Positions 2,338 to 12,932 of a DNA stretch of 36,697 nt are shown piece after piece. Position numbers and translations under genes: made by a program. Every line of letters starts with the position of its first letter. Within the stretch, counting starts at the first letter, position 1. Where the stretch lies: the NCBI GenBank assembly GCA_013138865.1, contig WTBY01000067.1:1-36697 (forward strand), read 5' to 3'. The notes below the pieces were generated by a model that had not been told where the DNA came from, made no database searches, and was given only the letters and a program-made list of their open reading frames with translations. Source of the stretch: Helicobacteraceae bacterium. GTDB taxonomy: Bacteria; Campylobacterota; Campylobacteria; Campylobacterales; Sulfurimonadaceae.

Positions 2338-2360
2338 CTTACTGCTTTTTTAGCTAAGTT
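2336..2360. terminator. weak bidirectional hairpin between convergent genes
   Basis: AACTTA (2336-2341) and TAAGTT (2355-2360) form a 6-bp inverted repeat around a 13-nt loop that contains a run of six T. It overlaps both convergent stop codons, of the GGDEF remnant and the tonB-like gene. The stem is short, so a terminator role is only a suggestion. Confidence 0.3.
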
Positions 2361-3054
2361 TAAACTCTAGTTGTAGACTTACATTAAGAGGAAAAATATT
2401 TAACTCTTTTGGTACTACTAATGGAAAACTTTTATAAATAGCTTTTGATACTGATTTTTTTAGTATGTTATATCTTGAAGAGAGTAGTACATTAGAAACT
2501 TTTCCATCTGCTAAAACTACAAAGTTAACTTTAACTTCACCCTCTATTCCACGATCTCTTGCACGTCTAGGGTAGTGCTTATTTTTATTTATTTTTTCTC
2601 TTAATGATGTTAAAAAGAGTCTCTTTTTTTCATTTAAAATATTTTTAGATCTACTTGTAGCGACAACAGTGTCACTATTTTTACTCTTGAGAGTTTTAAG
2701 CTTTTTGGTAGAACTTTTTTTAACTATTTTTTCTTCTTTCTTTTCTACCTTAGTTACAGCAGGTTTTGGTGCTACTTTTTTAACTATTTTTTTAACTTTT
2801 GCAAGTTTCTTTTTAATAATTTTTGGCTCAATTTTTTTAACTACTTTTTTTACTACCTTCTTAACATTTTTCTCATTAACTATACTATGTCTAGAAGCAG
2901 ATGAAAGAAGAGTAAACTTTATAAGTCTTTCGCTATTTTTAACTATTTTAGTATCACTTGAATCATCTTTTAATTCTAGTATATAAACTACGGATAAAAT
3001 TAAGATAGCGTAAATGCTAAAAGTTATAAAAAAAGACGAAAGGTATCTTTTCAT
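2350..3054 (-). CDS. TonB-like energy transducer
   Basis: TonB proteins span the periplasm and pass proton-motive energy to outer-membrane receptors. One N-terminal transmembrane segment is at about residues 5-26. A long lysine/valine-rich linker follows (about 60-130, with repeats such as KVVKK and KKIVKK) in place of the usual proline-rich rod. A C-terminal TonB domain is at about 145-234 (YPRRARDRGIEGEVKVNF). It is the last gene of the receptor operon and its start overlaps the upstream stop by one base, so it is probably dedicated to that receptor. No exbB or exbD is next to it, so it would need those proteins from elsewhere. Confidence 0.85.
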   Translation of the reverse strand: MKRYLSSFFITFSIYAILILSVVYILELKDDSSDTKIVKNSERLIKFTLLSSASRHSIVNEKNVKKVVKKVVKKIEPKIIKKKLAKVKKIVKKVAPKPAVTKVEKKEEKIVKKSSTKKLKTLKSKNSDTVVATSRSKNILNEKKRLFLTSLREKINKNKHYPRRARDRGIEGEVKVNFVVLADGKVSNVLLSSRYNILKKSVSKAIYKSFPLVVPKELNIFPLNVSLQLEFKLS

Positions 3055-3701
3055 TATAGACTAATCCAACCATTAAGAGTAGAGATACCAACAACTATAA
3101 GCATAGCTCCAGCTAACTTTTCTATAACTGTTTTATATTTTGAAAACTCTTCTGCAACACCTTTTGCCATTTTGGAGAGAATTACTCCAAATATTAAAAA
3201 TGAAGCACTTACCGCACCCAGACCAAAAGTTAAACCAAAAGTTGCAGAGTTAAAAACAGAAGTTGCATTCAAGCTAAGAGAGACAAGCGTCATAACTGGG
3301 ACACAAGGGTTAAGTGAGATCGCAAAACCTATAAGGAAATAACCAACTACACTTGAGCTATTTTGAGTGTTTACAGAACTACATGAACTACTTCTATAGC
3401 TTTTAAAAATAATGTAAGAACCAATAGCGATCGTAACAGTTCCTAGAAGTGTTTGTGAGATCTGCTCATTGTTAATGATGCTTTTAATCCAAACAGCACT
3501 ATAAAAAGATGCGATCGCAATAGATGTATACGCTACAACTCTACCTACACTAAATGGTATGAGAACTCTCATGCTCTGTGCGATCGTGTTTGAGTTAGTT
3601 AAAATAAGTGGACTTAAAAAGGGCATGCAAGTAAACATACAAGCAGTTGAACCATAACTAAGACCTAAAAGAAATAGTGAAACTACACTAGCAAACTCCA
3701 A
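3054..3701 (-). CDS. DsbD/SafE-like polytopic membrane protein
   Basis: This is a 215-aa protein with about six predicted membrane segments. The first helix holds a Cys pair, Cys21 and Cys25 (TACMFTCMPF), and a later helix has Cys133 in LNPCVPV. This is reminiscent of the DsbD/CcdA transmembrane domain, which moves reducing equivalents across the membrane, and of the sulfite-exporter TauE/SafE-like proteins often annotated near copper and cytochrome-oxidase assembly genes. It abuts the polyferredoxin gene with no gap. I infer a role in thiol/disulfide supply or metal movement for this operon. The substrate cannot be assigned from sequence. Confidence 0.65.
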   Translation of the reverse strand: MEFASVVSLFLLGLSYGSTACMFTCMPFLSPLILTNSNTIAQSMRVLIPFSVGRVVAYTSIAIASFYSAVWIKSIINNEQISQTLLGTVTIAIGSYIIFKSYRSSSCSSVNTQNSSSVVGYFLIGFAISLNPCVPVMTLVSLSLNATSVFNSATFGLTFGLGAVSASFLIFGVILSKMAKGVAEEFSKYKTVIEKLAGAMLIVVGISTLNGWISL

Positions 3702-4703
3702 CTACTTTTTCCACCACTTGTCTATTTTTACTCTCTTTTTGAAGTAATCTTTTGAAGAGGTAAAGGCATTTAGAGGACCATACTTTAGACTCAATACATC
3801 ATCATGTGGACAGAACTCAACACACCTTCCACAAAGTGTACAGTCTGCAAATGTTATATTCTTATTCTCGACACTATGTTGTATTTCATAAATATCCATA
3901 GGACAAGACTTAACACAGCTTGAGCAACCATCACATTTACTAGAGCCATTCTTAACAAGTCTAAATAGTCCAAACTTCTTAAATACGCTCTGCATTGGAA
4001 GCATAGGACAAATTCTACAAAAAGGCTGTTTTACAAAAAGTGCAAATGCGATCATAAGACCAAAAAGAAGGTCTGCTATGATCGAGAGAGTCATATAGCC
4101 CCATGTTGAGTTGTCAACATATAGTTGTGAAGTATCACCAGTTGCTAAGGTTGTCAAAATTCTACTTGGACAAATTTTACAAAAAGGATCACCTAACTCA
4201 TGCCCTACGAAGCCTAAACCCGTAAGAATAGGAAATATAAATATTAAAAAAGCAAAGAGTATCCACTTGATAGGTCGTATTTTTTTTACGCTTTCAAGTG
4301 AGAGTGAGGTGACTTGTTTAATTCTAAGCTTGGTTCCGATCATATTCACAACTTCTTGAAAGAAGCCTAAAGGACAAGTCCAGCCACAAAAGCCCTTGTT
4401 TAAAATGACTATTAGAATGAAAAAAGTAACTAAAGTTATAACTGTTCCCATAAGTCCAGCCATAGCTCCAATAGAGCCATCGATCACACCTGAAACTCTA
4501 TGATCCATCTGATGTTGAAGAGGGATTAAGACACAGTAATCACCTCCAACTTTGTCGTAAGCACAAGAGAGAGAGGGTAGGGCTTGTGTGAGTTTGTCAT
4601 TTGAGTAGAATGTAGTTAAAAAGAGTGAACCATAAACTAAAATAACAAAAAAGAATAGTTGTGAGATGCGTCTTAAAACGCTCAGAGTTAGAAGCTTATC
4701 CAT
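3702..4703 (-). CDS. NosR/NapH-like membrane polyferredoxin
   Basis: This 333-aa membrane iron-sulfur protein has about four or five membrane helices. It carries the NosR/NapH-type motif CGWTCP (Cys106, Cys110), further pairs CKIC (175, 178) and CRIC (229, 232), and two cytoplasmic 4Fe-4S ferredoxin motifs (Cys257/260/263/267 and Cys288/291/294/298). Two extra cysteines, Cys47 and Cys57, lie in the first probable periplasmic loop. Relatives carry electrons between the quinone pool and periplasmic reductases, and the related CcoG is reported to reduce cupric ion. There are no nap or nos genes beside it. It sits in a TonB-receptor operon and overlaps the gene upstream by 8 bases, so metal reduction during uptake is an attractive inference. 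Confidence 0.85.
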   Translation of the reverse strand: MDKLLTLSVLRRISQLFFFVILVYGSLFLTTFYSNDKLTQALPSLSCAYDKVGGDYCVLIPLQHQMDHRVSGVIDGSIGAMAGLMGTVITLVTFFILIVILNKGFCGWTCPLGFFQEVVNMIGTKLRIKQVTSLSLESVKKIRPIKWILFAFLIFIFPILTGLGFVGHELGDPFCKICPSRILTTLATGDTSQLYVDNSTWGYMTLSIIADLLFGLMIAFALFVKQPFCRICPMLPMQSVFKKFGLFRLVKNGSSKCDGCSSCVKSCPMDIYEIQHSVENKNITFADCTLCGRCVEFCPHDDVLSLKYGPLNAFTSSKDYFKKRVKIDKWWKK

Positions 4704-5499
4704 TTTTTCTCTTTCTGTATATAAATATACCTATTATAAAACCTGCGATCGCAGTTATAAGACCTAAACTTACTGACTGCCAGTAGTTAGTTGGGTTTAC
4801 ACTATAAGGTGCGCTCAGTGTTGTGAAGTACTCTTTGTTATTTTTGGTAGTTTTTGTACTTAAAATAAAGTGAGAAGCTTTGTTCGCTCGCCTTATATGC
4901 TTAACATTTTTAAAGTCATTTGGAAGCGTGAGTTTTAAAACTCCATTAGCATCACTTTTATAGATCTTTTTCGTACCATTAAGTGTTTGAAACTCAACTT
5001 CAATCTCTTGAGGTTTTGAGTCTAGTGTAACTAAAAAGCTATACTCTTTTGAACCACTATAGCGATCGTGCTCTCTTGGAAGTGGGTTAGGTTTGATCTC
5101 AAACTCAACTTTTTGTAATGATGTCAGTTTTGTTGGAGATGTTTGTGATGGCTTACCATGTTTGTAAATATAGTAAATTGCACTATATACTCTGTTGTCT
5201 TCACTCACTTCAGCTATTAGTGCATGGTAGTTGTTTACTCCACTTTTTGGAAGTGTCGCTGTATTTGGAGCTAACTCTATACTCTTTTTCTCAAGTGTAG
5301 AGAAAATATAGCTCACTTTTGCATTTTGAGATGGTGTGAAATTAATAAGTTCATACATAGAAACTTTGCCACCACCATGGTGTGAACCACCAGAACTCGA
5401 AGCACTACAACCATGAGGTAGCCAGTGAATTGTCTCAGAACTTGGCGTAGTAGCAAAACTTAGAGCAAAAAGAAGAGTCAAAAATGCTAGGAAGTTCAT
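4696..5499 (-). CDS. histidine-rich membrane-anchored periplasmic protein, possible metal binder
   Basis: The 267-aa product has an N-terminal signal peptide (about residues 1-17) and a C-terminal membrane anchor followed by RKRKNG (about 243-267), so the body should lie in the periplasm. Just after the signal is a cluster of possible metal ligands: His25, His29, Cys31, His40 and His41, in a Gly/Ser-rich stretch. The rest looks beta-rich and recalls DUF4198/NikK-like periplasmic domains found near metal transporters, but I cannot confirm the family. It starts 3 bases after the receptor gene ends. I infer that it receives the metal or metal complex imported by the receptor. Confidence 0.6.
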   Translation of the reverse strand: MNFLAFLTLLFALSFATTPSSETIHWLPHGCSASSSGGSHHGGGKVSMYELINFTPSQNAKVSYIFSTLEKKSIELAPNTATLPKSGVNNYHALIAEVSEDNRVYSAIYYIYKHGKPSQTSPTKLTSLQKVEFEIKPNPLPREHDRYSGSKEYSFLVTLDSKPQEIEVEFQTLNGTKKIYKSDANGVLKLTLPNDFKNVKHIRRANKASHFILSTKTTKNNKEYFTTLSAPYSVNPTNYWQSVSLGLITAIAGFIIGIFIYRKRKNG

Positions 5500-5502
5500 C
5501 TG

Positions 5503-7704
5503 TTAAAACTTTACACTTAAACCAGCACTTACAACTCTACCTGGTGCTACTGTGATAGATAGATCTTCATCATTAAAAAAGCCATCTTCATTGCGATCAC
5601 TACTTGTTCTTGCTGATTGATAGTATTTTTTGTCAAATGCGTTATTAACTCTTGCAAAAAAATTACAATCATACTCTTTGATCTTAATTTTATATGATCC
5701 AACTAGGTTTAGTGTGGCGTAACCTGGGATCTCTATTTGGTTAAGATCGTCTGCAAAGTAGCTAGACTTTGCGTTAACTTCTGTACTCATCTTTATCTCT
5801 TTGCTAGCTTGATAATCGAGAATAACATTTACAGTATGCTCTGATGTTCTAGGTATTCTATTTCCTGTTACATCATAAACCTGTACTGCTGCGGGAGAAT
5901 CCCATGTTCCTCTACCTAACGCCATACCGTAGTTAGTATAATCAGTATACTTAGCATCTAAATATGTATATGCAACATTCAGGTTAAGCTTTTCTACTAT
6001 GTCAGAATTAGCAGATAGCTCTAATCCTCTATTTGTTGCACCACCTATGTTGTCCCACATATCAACTGTATCCGTATCACCATAGTTTCCAGATGTTTTC
6101 ATAATAAAATTATTGCGATCAAGTTGAAAAATAGAGCTCTCAAAAGTAATATTCTCAACTTTACCTCTAATACCTATCTCGTAGTTCTGTGATTGTTCAG
6201 GTTTAAGATCTGGGTTATTTTGTGTTGATCCATAAGTGCTAACACTTCCAGCGTAAAGTTGATTAATTGTTGGAGCTCTAAAACCTGTTGATACATTTAG
6301 AAAAATTGTAGATGCGTCTGAAAGTTGGTAATCAGATCCAACTCTATAAGAGTAAACACTAAAGTCTTTTTTAAACTCATTACTTGTTGAGTCCAAATAG
6401 TCAAGTTTAATTAAGTCATTTCTTAAGTTGGCAGTAGCACTTATTTTCTCATTAAAAGCGTATTTATACTCACCATAAAGTGCGTAAACTTGTTCGTTAG
6501 TTTTGTTGTTACTTTTGTCTTCACCTATACTGTACACACCCACGTTTGTCTTAACACCTCTAGGGTAAGCATACTTTGCTTGTTCAACTCTATATGTAAC
6601 TTTATTTTTGTACTCATTGTTTCGTATATCAACTCCTATAAGTGCAGCAGAAGAGCCAAAAGAGTCTCTATACTCACTTTTCAGACCTCTTTGGATCTGA
6701 TCGTAGTTGTTATCGTAAAGATAATCATCATCACTATAGCTAGACTGTCTTGTGTCAGTAGCATCTTTTGTTTGCGGCGCTGACATGTATGTAGTTGTAT
6801 CAGTATATATATAAGCATTAAATAGTAAGTTTGCACTACCTTCAAGATCTTTAGAATATGTTGTAAATAGTTTAAATAGATCAACATCGTAGTTTCTCGT
6901 ATAGTCACGACTTGCTTGAACACCATTATAAATACTTTGAGGATTGTTCTCAGCCTCTGTTGCTCCACCTACCGTTCCGTGTGAATCTTTTTTACGTTTT
7001 GAATACTCTGTACCAAAGGTAAGATCACTAGTATCATCTATGTAATATTGGAGTTTACCATTTAGGTATTTAGTGTTATAGTCTGCCTTATCATGGTAAC
7101 CATCTCCTTTTCTCTGGCTAGCTTGTAAATGGAAATTCATATCTTTATTTGCATGACCTGCTCTTGCTACAAGTTTTCTATAGCCATGAGATCCAAGCTC
7201 AACTGAGCCAAAAGGTCTTGCATACTTAGCACCTTTTTTAGTTGTAATAATTACAGCACCAGCTAAAGCATCATCACCAAAAAGAAAACTCGCGCCACCT
7301 TTTATAACTTTAATGCTCTCTATGTTATCCATATCGATATTAACTCTACCAGTTCTTTCAAAAACAGGAACACCATCTATTACGATCGCAACACCTGGTT
7401 TTTCACCCATATACATTTGATTTTCAACACCACGAATGTGGATCTTTAAACTATCACCCGTAGTTGACTCTGTTGTAATACCTGGGATCTGTTGAAGTAT
7501 TTGTTGAATGTTTTCAGCATGAAGCTCATCAATTTTTTCAGCACTTATAGTTGCAGTGCTAGAGACTTCACTCCTTTTAGAGTCAAACCTATCATCGATC
7601 GTAGATGACTCAACACTTATAGTACCTAAGTTCTCGGCAGAAGCAGTTGTTAAGGCTAAACTTAAAAGTGAAGCTAATAGAATGGAGTTTTTACTTGTTC
7701 TCAT
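5503..7704 (-). CDS. TonB-dependent outer-membrane receptor
   Basis: The 733-aa protein has a signal peptide (about residues 1-23, ending TASA) and then a TonB-box-like stretch, GTISVESS. A plug domain follows (about 45-155, with IQQILQQIPGI and VIDGVPVF), then a long beta-barrel with the usual late motif GFRAPTINQLY and a C-terminal Phe needed for outer-membrane assembly. The ligand is not evident; candidates are iron, copper, nickel/cobalt or an organic complex. It heads a five-gene operon with TonB, a polyferredoxin and two membrane/periplasmic proteins, which points to a metal. A perfect inverted repeat lies 17 bases upstream of the start. Confidence 0.93.
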   Translation of the reverse strand: MRTSKNSILLASLLSLALTTASAENLGTISVESSTIDDRFDSKRSEVSSTATISAEKIDELHAENIQQILQQIPGITTESTTGDSLKIHIRGVENQMYMGEKPGVAIVIDGVPVFERTGRVNIDMDNIESIKVIKGGASFLFGDDALAGAVIITTKKGAKYARPFGSVELGSHGYRKLVARAGHANKDMNFHLQASQRKGDGYHDKADYNTKYLNGKLQYYIDDTSDLTFGTEYSKRKKDSHGTVGGATEAENNPQSIYNGVQASRDYTRNYDVDLFKLFTTYSKDLEGSANLLFNAYIYTDTTTYMSAPQTKDATDTRQSSYSDDDYLYDNNYDQIQRGLKSEYRDSFGSSAALIGVDIRNNEYKNKVTYRVEQAKYAYPRGVKTNVGVYSIGEDKSNNKTNEQVYALYGEYKYAFNEKISATANLRNDLIKLDYLDSTSNEFKKDFSVYSYRVGSDYQLSDASTIFLNVSTGFRAPTINQLYAGSVSTYGSTQNNPDLKPEQSQNYEIGIRGKVENITFESSIFQLDRNNFIMKTSGNYGDTDTVDMWDNIGGATNRGLELSANSDIVEKLNLNVAYTYLDAKYTDYTNYGMALGRGTWDSPAAVQVYDVTGNRIPRTSEHTVNVILDYQASKEIKMSTEVNAKSSYFADDLNQIEIPGYATLNLVGSYKIKIKEYDCNFFARVNNAFDKKYYQSARTSSDRNEDGFFNDEDLSITVAPGRVVSAGLSVKF

Positions 7705-7743: not shown

Positions 7744-7753
7744 ATAAGTGTTA

Positions 7754-7759
7754 ATTATA
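7754..7759 (-). promoter_or_regulatory. -10 box for the receptor operon
   Basis: A perfect TATAAT reads on the minus strand about 50 bases upstream of the receptor ATG. No good -35 is visible, which is common in Campylobacterota promoters. Confidence 0.45.
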
Positions 7760-7806
7760 TGTTAATACAATAGAAAAAGGTAATGCTAAATATTATTAAA
7801 TAGTAG

Positions 7807-9267: not shown

Positions 9268-10809
9268 TTACTCTTTTAGGCTCATAACTCCTGAGTAATA
9301 TACACCTGAAAGTAATGCCATCTCTCTATGCCAAGTTGATAAATCGTTATTATTAAATTTGCTTAAATTATTATGACCACAAGCACGTGCCATAACTTGC
9401 ATTAGTTCGACTGATGCATCAAAAAAGGTATATAGCTGCTTTGAGGATTGTTCAATATTTAATTTCTCACGTAAATCTTTCTTTTGTGTAGCAATACCTG
9501 ATGGACAGTTATTTGTATTACATATTCTTGCCCCCACGCAACCAATTGCTTGAATAGCACTATTTGAAATAGCAACACCATCTGCTCCAAGTGCTAATGC
9601 TTTAACAAAATCGATAGGTACACGTAATCCACCAGTAATGATGAGTGTGACACGCCCACTTGCACCCTGTTTTTCTAAGTAACTTCTTGCTCGTGCAAGA
9701 GCTGGAATGGTCGGTACGCTAATATGGTCTCTAAACATCTCAGGTGCAGCGCCTGTAGAACCACCACGTCCATCTAATATGATGTAGTCAGCACTTGCAT
9801 CTAGTGCAAACTGAATATCTTTTTCAATATGATTTGCACTAAGTTTAAAACCAATTGGAATACCACCCGTAACTTCTCTAATATGGTCTGCAAACTCTTT
9901 AAAATCTTTAGCCGAGGAAAGATTTTTAAAAGTTGTTGGAGAAATAGCAGGTTGCCCTTCAGGTATACCTCTAACTAGAGAAATTTTACCTATGTTTTTA
10001 CTACCGGGGAGATGACCACCAGTACCAGTTTTAGCAGCTTGTCCACCTTTGAAATGGAAGGCTTGTACTTTATGTAAGTCATCTTCATTATAACCAAAGC
10101 CAGCACTAGCATATTCATAAAAATAGCGTTCATTTGCTTCTTGCTCTTCAGGCAACATACCACCTTCACCTGAACAGATACCAGTACCTGCAAGGTTTGC
10201 ACCTTTAGCTAAGGCTATTTTTGCTTCTTCAGATAACGCACCAAAGCTCATGTCAGAAACAAATAAAGGAATTTTTAGTACCAATGGTTTTTTAGCCTCA
10301 GGACCAATAATCAGTTCAGTACCAACATTTACCTCTTCAAGTAATGGTTTGGTATCCATCTGTGCTGTCATTATTTGTAAATCATCCCAACGCGGTAATT
10401 CATTACGTGGAACACCCATAGCGGTCATTTGACCATGATGTCCCATTTTAGACAAGCCTTCACGAGAGAGTTGATGTATAAATTCTAAAGTAGGTTCTTC
10501 TAGTGTTGGTGTAGGTGATTCAGAAAGTTGTGATCTTTTTATCGATCTTTCTTTACCTATGTCTTCTGCACTAAAGTTTTGATGTGTACCATCGCAAAAA
10601 GGTGCATTAGAAGTATGTTTACATGCACAAAAATAAGCTTCTTCGTCTTTATCAGTATCAATAACTTTAGGAGTAAATGAAGTACCTACATGTGAACCAT
10701 CACAAAATGGTTGTTGTTTAGATCTACCACATGTACAAAAATAATATTCCTCACCTTTAGATAGAGTTACCTGAACTGGTTTGTTATCTGCAACTATTGG
10801 ATTTGCCAT
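9268..10809 (-). CDS. double-CDGSH / glutamate-synthase-domain fusion protein
   Basis: The N-terminus carries two CDGSH-type iron-sulfur motifs (Cys25, Cys27, Cys36, His40 and Cys61, Cys63, Cys72, His76). It is joined to an FMN-binding GltB-type alpha/beta-barrel domain. That domain includes GGRGGSTGAAP and a 3Fe-4S motif, CVGARICNTNNC. The glutaminase domain of true glutamate synthase is absent, so it is a glutamate-synthase-like oxidoreductase of unknown substrate. I chose the ATG at 10809 (513 aa): it has AAAGGA at proper spacing and begins MANPIV, while an upstream ATG at 10866 lies inside the preceding gene. It stands 43 bases after the ydcF-like gene. Confidence 0.88.
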   Translation of the reverse strand: MANPIVADNKPVQVTLSKGEEYYFCTCGRSKQQPFCDGSHVGTSFTPKVIDTDKDEEAYFCACKHTSNAPFCDGTHQNFSAEDIGKERSIKRSQLSESPTPTLEEPTLEFIHQLSREGLSKMGHHGQMTAMGVPRNELPRWDDLQIMTAQMDTKPLLEEVNVGTELIIGPEAKKPLVLKIPLFVSDMSFGALSEEAKIALAKGANLAGTGICSGEGGMLPEEQEANERYFYEYASAGFGYNEDDLHKVQAFHFKGGQAAKTGTGGHLPGSKNIGKISLVRGIPEGQPAISPTTFKNLSSAKDFKEFADHIREVTGGIPIGFKLSANHIEKDIQFALDASADYIILDGRGGSTGAAPEMFRDHISVPTIPALARARSYLEKQGASGRVTLIITGGLRVPIDFVKALALGADGVAISNSAIQAIGCVGARICNTNNCPSGIATQKKDLREKLNIEQSSKQLYTFFDASVELMQVMARACGHNNLSKFNNNDLSTWHREMALLSGVYYSGVMSLKE

Positions 10810-10852
10810 ATTATTCCTTTTGTTATATACAGAGTCTAAATATAAATTTTTA

Positions 10853-11503
10853 TTAACGCTCTTCAACTATTGTAGCATTAGAAGAGTTAAAGAAGTAAAA
10901 TATAAACTTTAAAGGCTCCATTATATAAGAAGAGAGACCAGCTTCAGTTTTGTACCAATTGCTCTCATTAAAAATTTCATTTGGTGCTGCTGCCATCTCT
11001 ATTTTAAGATCTTTGATATTGTTAAGTTCCATTATTTTATTAAAAGCATATTTAGATCTTGCGGTATGAAAAGAGTCAGTTACTATTATAACATGCTTCA
11101 TAGGGTGGGTTTTAAGAAATTCTACTAGATCTATTGCTTCATCAAAAGTACTTGTAGCTCCACCTTTTGTGCTCGGGATAATAGTAGCTGTTACACCATT
11201 ACTTTTTAATACCTCTAAATAACGTTCTTGTTCACTCTTTAAAATACCATTTAGTTGAGTTCTATACTGTTTAGGTGATGTTAAGATGATCTCTTTTGCA
11301 TAGTTCTCTTTAATAAGTTTAGAAGCGTAAGATGGACGGGTTTTGTCATTTCCACCTAAAATAATGATCGCATCAGCGCCTTTTGTAGCACTGTTCACTC
11401 TAAACATATTAGCGTAACCAGTGAGTAATTCTTGAGTAAAGAATGTGAAGAGCAGGGCGTACCCTACTAAAATAAAGAAAGGGTACTTAATTAGTGGGTT
11501 CAT
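10853..11503 (-). CDS. YdcF/SanA-like DUF218 protein
   Basis: The 216-aa product has an N-terminal membrane segment (about residues 8-28) and a DUF218 domain with DAIIILGG near residue 45, a GGATSTFDEA loop and VTDSFHTARSKYAF. Proteins of this family (YdcF, SanA, ElyC) are linked to envelope biogenesis, but the reaction is not established. The start overlaps the end of pepA by 17 bases, so it is the last gene of the long housekeeping operon. Confidence 0.85.
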   Translation of the reverse strand: MNPLIKYPFFILVGYALLFTFFTQELLTGYANMFRVNSATKGADAIIILGGNDKTRPSYASKLIKENYAKEIILTSPKQYRTQLNGILKSEQERYLEVLKSNGVTATIIPSTKGGATSTFDEAIDLVEFLKTHPMKHVIIVTDSFHTARSKYAFNKIMELNNIKDLKIEMAAAPNEIFNESNWYKTEAGLSSYIMEPLKFIFYFFNSSNATIVEER

Positions 11504-12932
11504 TAAGTTGTTGACGCATCCACTCTATTGTGAGTCTAACTCCTGCTCCTGTTGCACCGTAGTTGTTACAATCCCAAGAAGACTCACTGTAAGCACTTCC
11601 TGCTATATCAAAGTGAAGCCACTTATCTTTCATATTTTCATCTATAAAGCTCTCTAAAAATAGAGCAGCAGTAATCGCACCACCGTAAGGTTTAGAAGCT
11701 ACGTTACAGATGTCAGCAATTTCACTTTTTATAAGCTTTTTAAGATGTCTGTTAAATGGTAGTGAAGCTACTAATTCTCCACTATCTACCGAAGCTTGAA
11801 AAAATTGATGTTTAAGTCTATGTGAATGACCCATAACACCGGTTGTATATTGTCCAAGTGCAACCATACAAGCACCAGTTAGTGTTGCAAAGTCAAAAAT
11901 ATAGTCAGACTTTATTTTCTCTTGAGTATAAGTTAGAACATCAGCAAGAACCAGACGTCCCTCTGCATCAGTGTTGCGTACCTCAATAGTTTTACCATTT
12001 TTAGAAGTTAAAACATCATCAGGTTTATAAGCGTTACCATTAACCATGTTCTCTGCTGCACCGATAAGTCCATGAACTTCGATCGGAAGTTTTAGTTCAC
12101 TTACGGCTTTCATCATTCCAAGAACGGCGCACGCACCAGCTTTATCCATTTTCATAGTTACCATAGAAGTAGCCGGTTTAAGACTCATTCCTCCGCTATC
12201 ATACGTTAAACCTTTTCCAACAAGTGAAAGAGTGAACTGAGGATTATGTGGTTTGTAAGTTAGGTGAATAAGACGAGGTTTATGAACAGAAGCACGACCT
12301 ACTGCTAACATAGCATTCATATTTTCTTGTTCAAGAGCATGCTCATCCAAAATAGTACACTCTAGGTTATTCTCATCAGCCAAGTCACGTGCTACTACAG
12401 CTAAGGCTTGAGGTGTCATATCGTTAGGGATCGTATTTACCAGATCTCTTGTAAAGTTTGTTGCTTTTGCGATCACTAATGCAGAGTTATAATCTTCTAG
12501 TAGTCTCTTTTGATCTAACTCCTCAGCATTGAAGTTATCGTTTGATAAGTAGATGTTTTTTAGTTCTGATTTTTTAGGATCTGATTTATAATCATTAAAG
12601 CTATACTCACCTAAAAGAATACCCTCAACTAAAGCAAAAGTGTTTTCTTGGTTGTATTGAAAAAGTTTCGCACTTTTATAGCTATAAGCTTTTATAGCTT
12701 TAATCATAGTTGCTGTTGCACTTCTAATAGTGTCCGCTTCAAAGTTATCTATCCCAACTACTACAAGTGAGTGCGCATGAAGTGCGCATATAGAGTCACT
12801 CTCTGCTTTAAAACCTGCACGAGATAGTACCTCTTTGTGTGGGTGAGTCTCTAAAAGATCAGGTGTTAAAAATGTTACTAGAAGTTCTGCTTCTATCTCT
12901 GTTAGTGGTTGTTGTTTTAATTCTAATTGCAT
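11487..12932 (-). CDS. pepA: leucyl aminopeptidase (M17, PepA)
   Basis: This cytosolic two-metal aminopeptidase removes N-terminal residues from peptides. The C-terminal half has the M17 signatures VGKGLTYDSGG, MKMDKAGAC and NTDAEGRL, which supply the Lys, Asp and Glu that bind the two metals and the bicarbonate-site Arg. The length of 481 aa is normal. Its ATG overlaps the dedA stop by one base. Confidence 0.96.
   Translation of the reverse strand: MQLELKQQPLTEIEAELLVTFLTPDLLETHPHKEVLSRAGFKAESDSICALHAHSLVVVGIDNFEADTIRSATATMIKAIKAYSYKSAKLFQYNQENTFALVEGILLGEYSFNDYKSDPKKSELKNIYLSNDNFNAEELDQKRLLEDYNSALVIAKATNFTRDLVNTIPNDMTPQALAVVARDLADENNLECTILDEHALEQENMNAMLAVGRASVHKPRLIHLTYKPHNPQFTLSLVGKGLTYDSGGMSLKPATSMVTMKMDKAGACAVLGMMKAVSELKLPIEVHGLIGAAENMVNGNAYKPDDVLTSKNGKTIEVRNTDAEGRLVLADVLTYTQEKIKSDYIFDFATLTGACMVALGQYTTGVMGHSHRLKHQFFQASVDSGELVASLPFNRHLKKLIKSEIADICNVASKPYGGAITAALFLESFIDENMKDKWLHFDIAGSAYSESSWDCNNYGATGAGVRLTIEWMRQQLNEPTN

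Follow-up and report, generated by a model that had tools for sequence, protein, structure and literature searches.

Little is settled about how scarce copper crosses the two membranes of Gram-negative bacteria, and bacterial copper import in general is poorly known. The sole receptor-plus-reductase pair that we found in the literature, CrtA-CrpH of Bordetella pertussis, dates from 2026 and combines a copper-regulated TonB receptor with a PepSY_TM protein that was proposed to be a periplasmic copper reductase (PMC12914433, PMC13038864). CcoG has been reported as a cupric reductase (Marckmann 2019, as cited in PMC8267372). DUF4198 proteins are described elsewhere as nickel-binding (PMC12537917) or as members of iron- or Fur-regulated groups that also include TonB receptors and proteins with PepSY domains (PMC3751524, PMC7190382, PMC8238504). 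Here we analysed a stretch of 36,697 nucleotides (nt) from a Helicobacteraceae bacterium (assembly GCA_013138865.1, contig WTBY01000067.1; referred to as the window), which carries an operon of five genes at 2350-7704. These encode a TonB-dependent receptor, a protein of 267 amino acids (P267), a polyferredoxin, a SafE-like protein of family PF13386 and a TonB. The best overall explanation of the sequence data is that receptor, P267, polyferredoxin, PF13386 protein and TonB probably form a copper-acquisition system that serves respiratory copper enzymes. The features are as follows.

7747 to 7765, minus strand: direct repeat TTAACA-TATAA-TTAACACT with a period of 11 base pairs (bp), putative response-regulator site (de novo motif search and inspection)
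5503 to 7704, minus strand: TonB-dependent outer-membrane receptor, 733 amino acids (Pfam TonB_dep_Rec 1.7e-48, Plug 2.5e-21)
4696 to 5499, minus strand: P267, predicted periplasmic, with signal-like N-terminus, His-rich segment, DUF4198 fold and C-terminal membrane anchor
3702 to 4703, minus strand: polyferredoxin, NapH/CcoG-like membrane protein, 333 amino acids (Fer4_5 2.6e-9, Fer4_10 2.7e-9)
3054 to 3701, minus strand: SafE-like (PF13386, DsbD_2) polytopic membrane protein, 215 amino acids, TTG start (DsbD_2 7e-18)
2350 to 3054, minus strand: TonB, 234 amino acids, putative dedicated energy coupler (TonB_C 2e-11)

A check of the open reading frames (ORFs) found all five as a single tight run on the minus strand, where the first-pass annotation of this DNA had placed them. 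The polyferredoxin gene overlaps that of P267 by 8 nt, the SafE-like gene abuts the polyferredoxin gene and the TonB gene overlaps the SafE-like gene by 1 nt.

Conservation and two architectures

A contig scan with the polyferredoxin alignment yielded 397 relatives, of which 80 were kept for neighbourhood counts. They span Campylobacterota, Gammaproteobacteria and Zetaproteobacteria, with carriers in Sulfuricurvum, Sulfurimonas, Sulfurovum, Arcobacter, Sedimenticola, Ca. Thiodiazotropha, Neptuniibacter, Halothiobacillus, Methylophaga and Mariprofundus. P267 is encoded directly upstream of the polyferredoxin in 76 of 76 testable loci and the SafE-like protein downstream of it in 77 of 77. A TonB receptor lies upstream in 59 of 64 testable loci, and TonB or ExbB is found nearby in 34 of 40. 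The order P267-polyferredoxin-SafE is kept in every testable relative and is not due to chance; the operon of five genes is genuine and highly conserved. In Neptuniibacter (L092, L115, L116), P267-polyferredoxin-SafE-ExbB-ExbD-TonB is present without a receptor directly upstream, and a receptor is encoded downstream on the opposite strand. Operons of the Mariprofundus type (L108:8653-9189; L084, L102) carry a gene for a Cys-rich LTXXQ periplasmic protein (Spy/CpxP-like, below cut-off) between receptor and P267.

Searching 200 genomes of the window's order with P267 revealed two architectures. Form A, to which the window belongs, has the order receptor-P267-polyferredoxin-SafE-(ExbB-ExbD)-TonB; ExbB and ExbD are part of the operon in many relatives, but not in the window. 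Form B has the order receptor, SafE, a fusion protein of ~770 amino acids, NapH-like polyferredoxin, double-cubane reductase and activase. In the fusion, a NapH-like half is followed by membrane helices and by a DUF4198 domain that ends in a membrane helix. P267 matches the C-terminal part of this protein. The separate NapH-like polyferredoxin is ~34% identical to that of the window. Form B loci (L027-L035, e.g. L032:2067-10497) thus combine a TonB receptor with a double-cubane reductase, which matches PDB 6eno (3e-59), and a BadF-type activase. Among 15 genomes tested, the double-cubane gene occurs only in those with form B, and it is absent from 10 of 10 genomes that have form A only, the window's included. 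Two Sulfuricurvum genomes have form A and, divergently next to it, a form B-like cluster. One genome (L030, G077) carries a disrupted form B receptor gene at 9962-12143, present as two ORFs of 366 and 167 amino acids, in an otherwise intact operon.

The receptors of the module fall into two groups with ~48% and ~22% identity to the window receptor, and the module thus combines with more than one type of receptor. The first-pass annotation had considered that the receptor might pair elsewhere with unrelated genes. We found the same module throughout, though with these two receptor subfamilies.

Promoter repeat and copper context

De novo motif search and inspection revealed a direct repeat, TTAACA-N5-TTAACAC, with an 11-bp period upstream of the Campylobacterota operons. 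It is present at 11 or more matches of 13 in all 26 operons tested (17/17 of form A and 9/9 of form B), usually 52-67 bp from the start and, in the window, 43-61 bp before the receptor start. Shuffled sequences gave 0.38 (form A) and 0.18 (form B), and control upstream regions contained it in 4 of 49 cases at ≥11/13 and in 0 of 49 at ≥12/13. When 11 genomes were searched whole, the exact repeat was found at 20 sites and the reversed pattern at none. Six of these sites belong to the operon itself, two precede ExbB-ExbD(-TonB) and six precede clear copper genes, namely PCuAC-x-Sco1, NosL, two receptors and, twice, PF13386-ccoN. The remaining sites lie before a weak CopD-like match (one), a membrane protein of unassigned kind (two) and unrelated genes (three). 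For the two receptors, which are fragments at locus ends and score under the TIGR01778 cut-off, the best NCBIfam model is TonB-copper and the motif CPNRMDPP is present. The window's own genome has just two exact sites, one before this operon and one before PF13386-ccoN, and a site with one mismatch precedes an OprC-type receptor with CPNRMDPP. The repeat is also found in Sulfuricurvum (L176, L177) before a 406-amino-acid membrane protein without Pfam match. Relatives of this protein adjoin the operon in L058 (504-3220), there with a C-terminal cytochrome c domain, and possibly represent a copper-free respiratory complex.

Gammaproteobacterial operons have a different upstream motif, a strong palindrome around GTGATATCAC (log-likelihood 183 versus 65-71 for shuffled sequences). 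As TTnnGTGATATCACnnAA, it was seen upstream of the receptor in many of these operons (L106, L078, L097, L060 and others). Fur boxes at 15 or more of 19 positions were found in none of 58 operon upstream regions, compared to 9 of 25 feoA controls from carrier genomes; this evidence is mostly gammaproteobacterial. Scans upstream of the operon with the NikR, Zur and CueR consensus sequences remained at chance level. FNR-like sites were slightly enriched in Gammaproteobacteria (7/46 versus 10/215, p 0.016), a weak signal that we did not use as evidence.

Neighbouring genes in other phyla also point to copper. Locus L104, from a Chromatiales genome, encodes a complete copper receptor directly after SafE (618 bits to TIGR01778, cut-off 472). 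Further gammaproteobacterial neighbours are PCuAC directly after TonB (L114), Sco (L077, L087) and COX1 (L061). Because the promoter repeat is common to copper genes, copper neighbours recur in other phyla and Fur boxes are missing, the metal is most readily assigned to copper, and copper acquisition by the operon is well supported by its sequence context. The first-pass annotation had named copper or iron as most likely and nickel as possible: the promoter repeat and the neighbours narrow this choice to copper, and the lack of Fur boxes speaks against iron.

A nosZ gene was detected neither in the window's genome nor in any of the six form A genomes of the order, compared to 79 of 200 genomes overall. 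The copper user is therefore not NosZ, and copper supply for this enzyme was ruled out as the function of the operon. Since nosZ is absent, the cbb3 oxidase is probably the copper client in the window's genome. The first-pass annotation had reported no nap or nos genes, which is true of the window; the genome, which lacks nosZ, does contain a nap-type cluster (L037, at G000:C50) with a NapA-sized protein of 943 amino acids, a 16-Cys NapG-like and NapH-like proteins. Directly beyond the 3′ side of the operon lies an IS21-type element with istB- and istA-like genes (12-1945), followed by a GGDEF fragment (2014-2337).

Predicted functions of the proteins and alternative explanations

P267 of the window has no match in Pfam, PF10670 (DUF4198) included. 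Among its form A relatives, 26 of 48 match PF10670 at E≤0.01, and a form B homologue passes the gathering cut-off (35.0 versus 34). Structure prediction (predicted local distance difference test, pLDDT, 90) gave a model that aligns in VIA-align with Z scores of 18.0-18.6 to Zcp bound to copper, zinc and cobalt. The best match is 9mhm (Zcp-Cu, Z 18.6); nickel-bound DUF4198 of Ideonella (9gcb) follows with Z 16.0 and the next unrelated structure with 8.2. By this model, P267 has the metal-binding DUF4198 fold. The fold says 'metal' and not which metal, as nickel or iron has been reported for DUF4198 proteins. Invariant residues of P267 are H144, R142, Y232 and W240, and 68 of 72 sequences contain at least three His within the first 90 residues. 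The N-terminal His of the mature chain is a metal ligand expected of DUF4198 proteins; in the window protein the first His is H24, followed by a His-rich segment near H40, and C31 is the single Cys; the label 'His/Cys-rich' of the first-pass annotation thus fits the histidines and was overstated for cysteine. These features suggest a putative metal-binding chaperone. A sequence search for Zcp/DUF4198 chains, with the aim of mapping metal ligands onto P267, found none, and a literature search on 'Zcp' in the sense of a metal protein returned nothing.

The polyferredoxin can be placed by its CX3CP, CX2CP and two 4Fe-4S ferredoxin motifs in the NapH/NosR/CcoG superfamily, and it scores below the curated cut-offs of the NapH models (TIGR02163, 61.4 of 213 bits; PRK09477, 63.6 of 234 bits). 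All 16 Cys as well as His64 and His68 are invariant in an alignment of 77 form A sequences; His68 is lost in form B. The CX3CP pair (C106/C110), the CX2CP pair (C229/C232) and the eight ferredoxin Cys have aligned counterparts in the NapH-like and CcoG-like proteins of the window's genome, which lack C47, C57, H64, C175 and C178. By hydropathy, C47/C57 and C175/C178 fall in two loops on one side of the membrane, whereas the ferredoxin domain lies on the opposite side together with C106/C110 and C229/C232. We infer four iron-sulfur cluster sites, the fourth of which (C47, C57, C175, C178) would face the periplasm, with a metal site as the alternative. Since C175/C178 are also invariant and predicted on the same side as C47/C57, a cluster seems no less likely than a copper site at Cys47/Cys57. 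The structural model (mean pLDDT 75) could not decide between the two because residues 26-60, which hold the Cys47/Cys57 loop, score below 50, and a Foldseek search with it gave no match. The protein is thus a putative electron wire to the periplasm or Cu(II) reductase.

The SafE-like protein matches PF13386 over residues 9-206 (65.7, cut-off 24.9). It has three invariant cysteines, C21, C25 and one in an NPC motif (alignment position 133). In an alignment they coincide with the cysteines of HCxGMCGG and PCG in the PF13386 protein whose gene precedes ccoN. The first-pass annotation had called the inner-membrane step unusual; this alignment offers the SafE-like protein as a candidate, a putative Cu(I)- or thiol-handling step.

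For the window receptor, the best NCBIfam score is to TonB-siderophor, under the cut-off. TIGR01778 (OprC/NosA) is absent from its 21 NCBIfam hits and the CPNRM copper motif is not in the sequence. The CrtA structure 9rvq matches weakly (1.2e-10 for the window receptor, 4e-17 for that of L081) over plug and barrel parts. Conserved residues of the CrtA cluster are Y130, W265, E337, Q356, H358 and R395 (PMC12914433, PMC13038864), and H358 lies outside the alignments. The nearest PDB relatives are YncD/PqqU (4e-27), the transporter of pyrroloquinoline quinone (PQQ). The first-pass annotation had also considered an organic ligand for the closest characterised relatives; this likeness does not refute metal uptake because it is remote and below the PqqU family cut-off (150 bits, cut-off 1200).

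In the proposed mechanism, the receptor, energised by the dedicated TonB, would bring copper, as a chelate or as the ion, through the outer membrane. The anchored P267 would hold the copper through His ligands at the inner membrane. The polyferredoxin would take electrons from the quinol pool or from a cytoplasmic ferredoxin, conduct them through the membrane and reduce Cu(II) to Cu(I), which the PF13386 protein would receive or pass on via the CxxxC and PC cysteines in its membrane part. That the polyferredoxin reduces Cu(II) and the SafE-like protein handles Cu(I) are roles that we infer, and the former is the weakest step of the mechanism. In form B, the electrons would come from the ATP-driven double-cubane reductase encoded in the same operon. 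Tentatively, reductase and activase may inject ATP-powered low-potential electrons through two NapH-like wires to a copper-holding periplasmic DUF4198 domain, with form A as the quinol- or ferredoxin-driven counterpart that has a fourth periplasm-facing cluster. If true, a physiological role would be found for the double-cubane family. The suggestion from the first inspection of the sequence, that metal uptake involves a membrane electron-transfer protein of its own, is supported.

Several points weigh against copper acquisition as described above. The window receptor could not be assigned by sequence to either known copper-receptor family, and other DUF4198 proteins have been connected with iron or nickel (PMC3751524, PMC7190382, PMC12537917). 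Three of the 20 exact repeat sites precede unrelated genes, and the regulon of the repeat could be 'respiration' rather than 'copper'. Strict genome matches of the gammaproteobacterial palindrome outside the operon included no copper gene. Finally, Cu(II) is easily reduced, and the double-cubane donor of form B seems far stronger than this reaction needs. An easy substrate and an excessive donor leave room for a copper system in which the electrons of the polyferredoxin instead serve thiols, either those of the PF13386 protein or those of periplasmic copper chaperones, or reduce a very stable organic chelate. Relatives of PF13386/DsbD do move thiol electrons, the SafE cysteines are invariant and the gene after TonB in Sedimenticola (L081) is thioredoxin-like (AhpC-TSA/Redoxin). 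Such genes are, however, rare near the operon (4 loci), and the combination of DUF4198, membrane electron-transfer protein and receptor recurs in other metal-reduction modules (PMC8238504), so that we regard this explanation as unlikely.

Copper acquisition with Cu(II) reduction also has to be weighed against other substrates. Reductive uptake of ferric chelates, as in PepSY-DUF4198 modules, would agree with the TonB-siderophor score of the receptor and with the Fur-regulated or iron-responsive receptor/DUF4198/PepSY clusters of Caulobacter and Alteromonas (PMC3751524, PMC7190382), but the absence of Fur boxes and a promoter repeat common to copper genes make it very improbable. There is a similarly slim chance that the metal is nickel, or cobalt or zinc: in thermal shift, Ni(II) but not Cu(II) stabilises IsDUF4198 (PMC12537917), and the fold of P267 matches Zcp with Zn, Cu and Co, whereas NikR- and Zur-like sites do not exceed chance, the promoter is shared with copper genes and the neighbours are genes of copper enzymes. 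The likeness to YncD/PqqU would suit an organic redox compound such as PQQ that is reduced on arrival. Given the score far below the PqqU cut-off, the use of two receptor subfamilies with one module and the constant presence of a protein with a metal-binding fold, we consider this explanation close to negligible.

Comparison with known systems

Literature searches, which covered few subscription journals, found no paper on this operon or on DUF4198 together with copper and ferredoxin, and none that combines 'double-cubane' with 'TonB'. Compared to the PepSY-DUF2271-DUF4198 iron modules (PMC8238504, PMC3751524), the operon shares DUF4198, a membrane electron-transfer protein and a TonB receptor. 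Those modules, however, are Fur-regulated and flavin/PepSY based, and no PF13386 protein is mentioned for them. With CcoG, NapH and NosR the polyferredoxin has in common the CX3CP and CX2CP motifs and two ferredoxin clusters. It differs by the added invariant C47, C57, H64, C175 and C178, which are predicted to face the periplasm, and by the lack of a flavin mononucleotide domain; for CcoG, a cytoplasmic site of action is described. OprC/NosA (TIGR01778) likewise import copper through a TonB receptor and share the promoter repeat in Campylobacterota, whereas the window receptor has neither the CPNRM motif nor a TIGR01778 match. The double-cubane protein and activase of the PDB 6eno family are both encoded in form B operons; for this family no TonB-receptor link appeared in the searched literature, and the gene is absent from the window's genome.

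The closest parallel is CrtA-CrpH, which is also a TonB receptor operon with a proposed reductase, a link to heme-copper oxidase and no Fur site, and in which ExbBD-TonB and PCuAC/Sco genes likewise occur in some operons. There the reductase is a heme PepSY_TM protein, whereas here it would be an unrelated iron-sulfur polyferredoxin. The gene after the receptor encodes the DUF4198-fold P267, followed by the polyferredoxin and no PepSY_TM protein, and the DUF4198 and PF13386 partners, always present here, are unmentioned in the CrtA-CrpH papers. The operon would thus be an independent, non-homologous solution over three classes, with a strict gene order and a named metal. Its short promoter site predicts co-regulated genes, and form B may tie orphan double-cubane enzymes to a concrete pathway. 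The double-cubane form B is the more novel part; otherwise the operon follows the CrtA-CrpH plan with an unrelated reductase.

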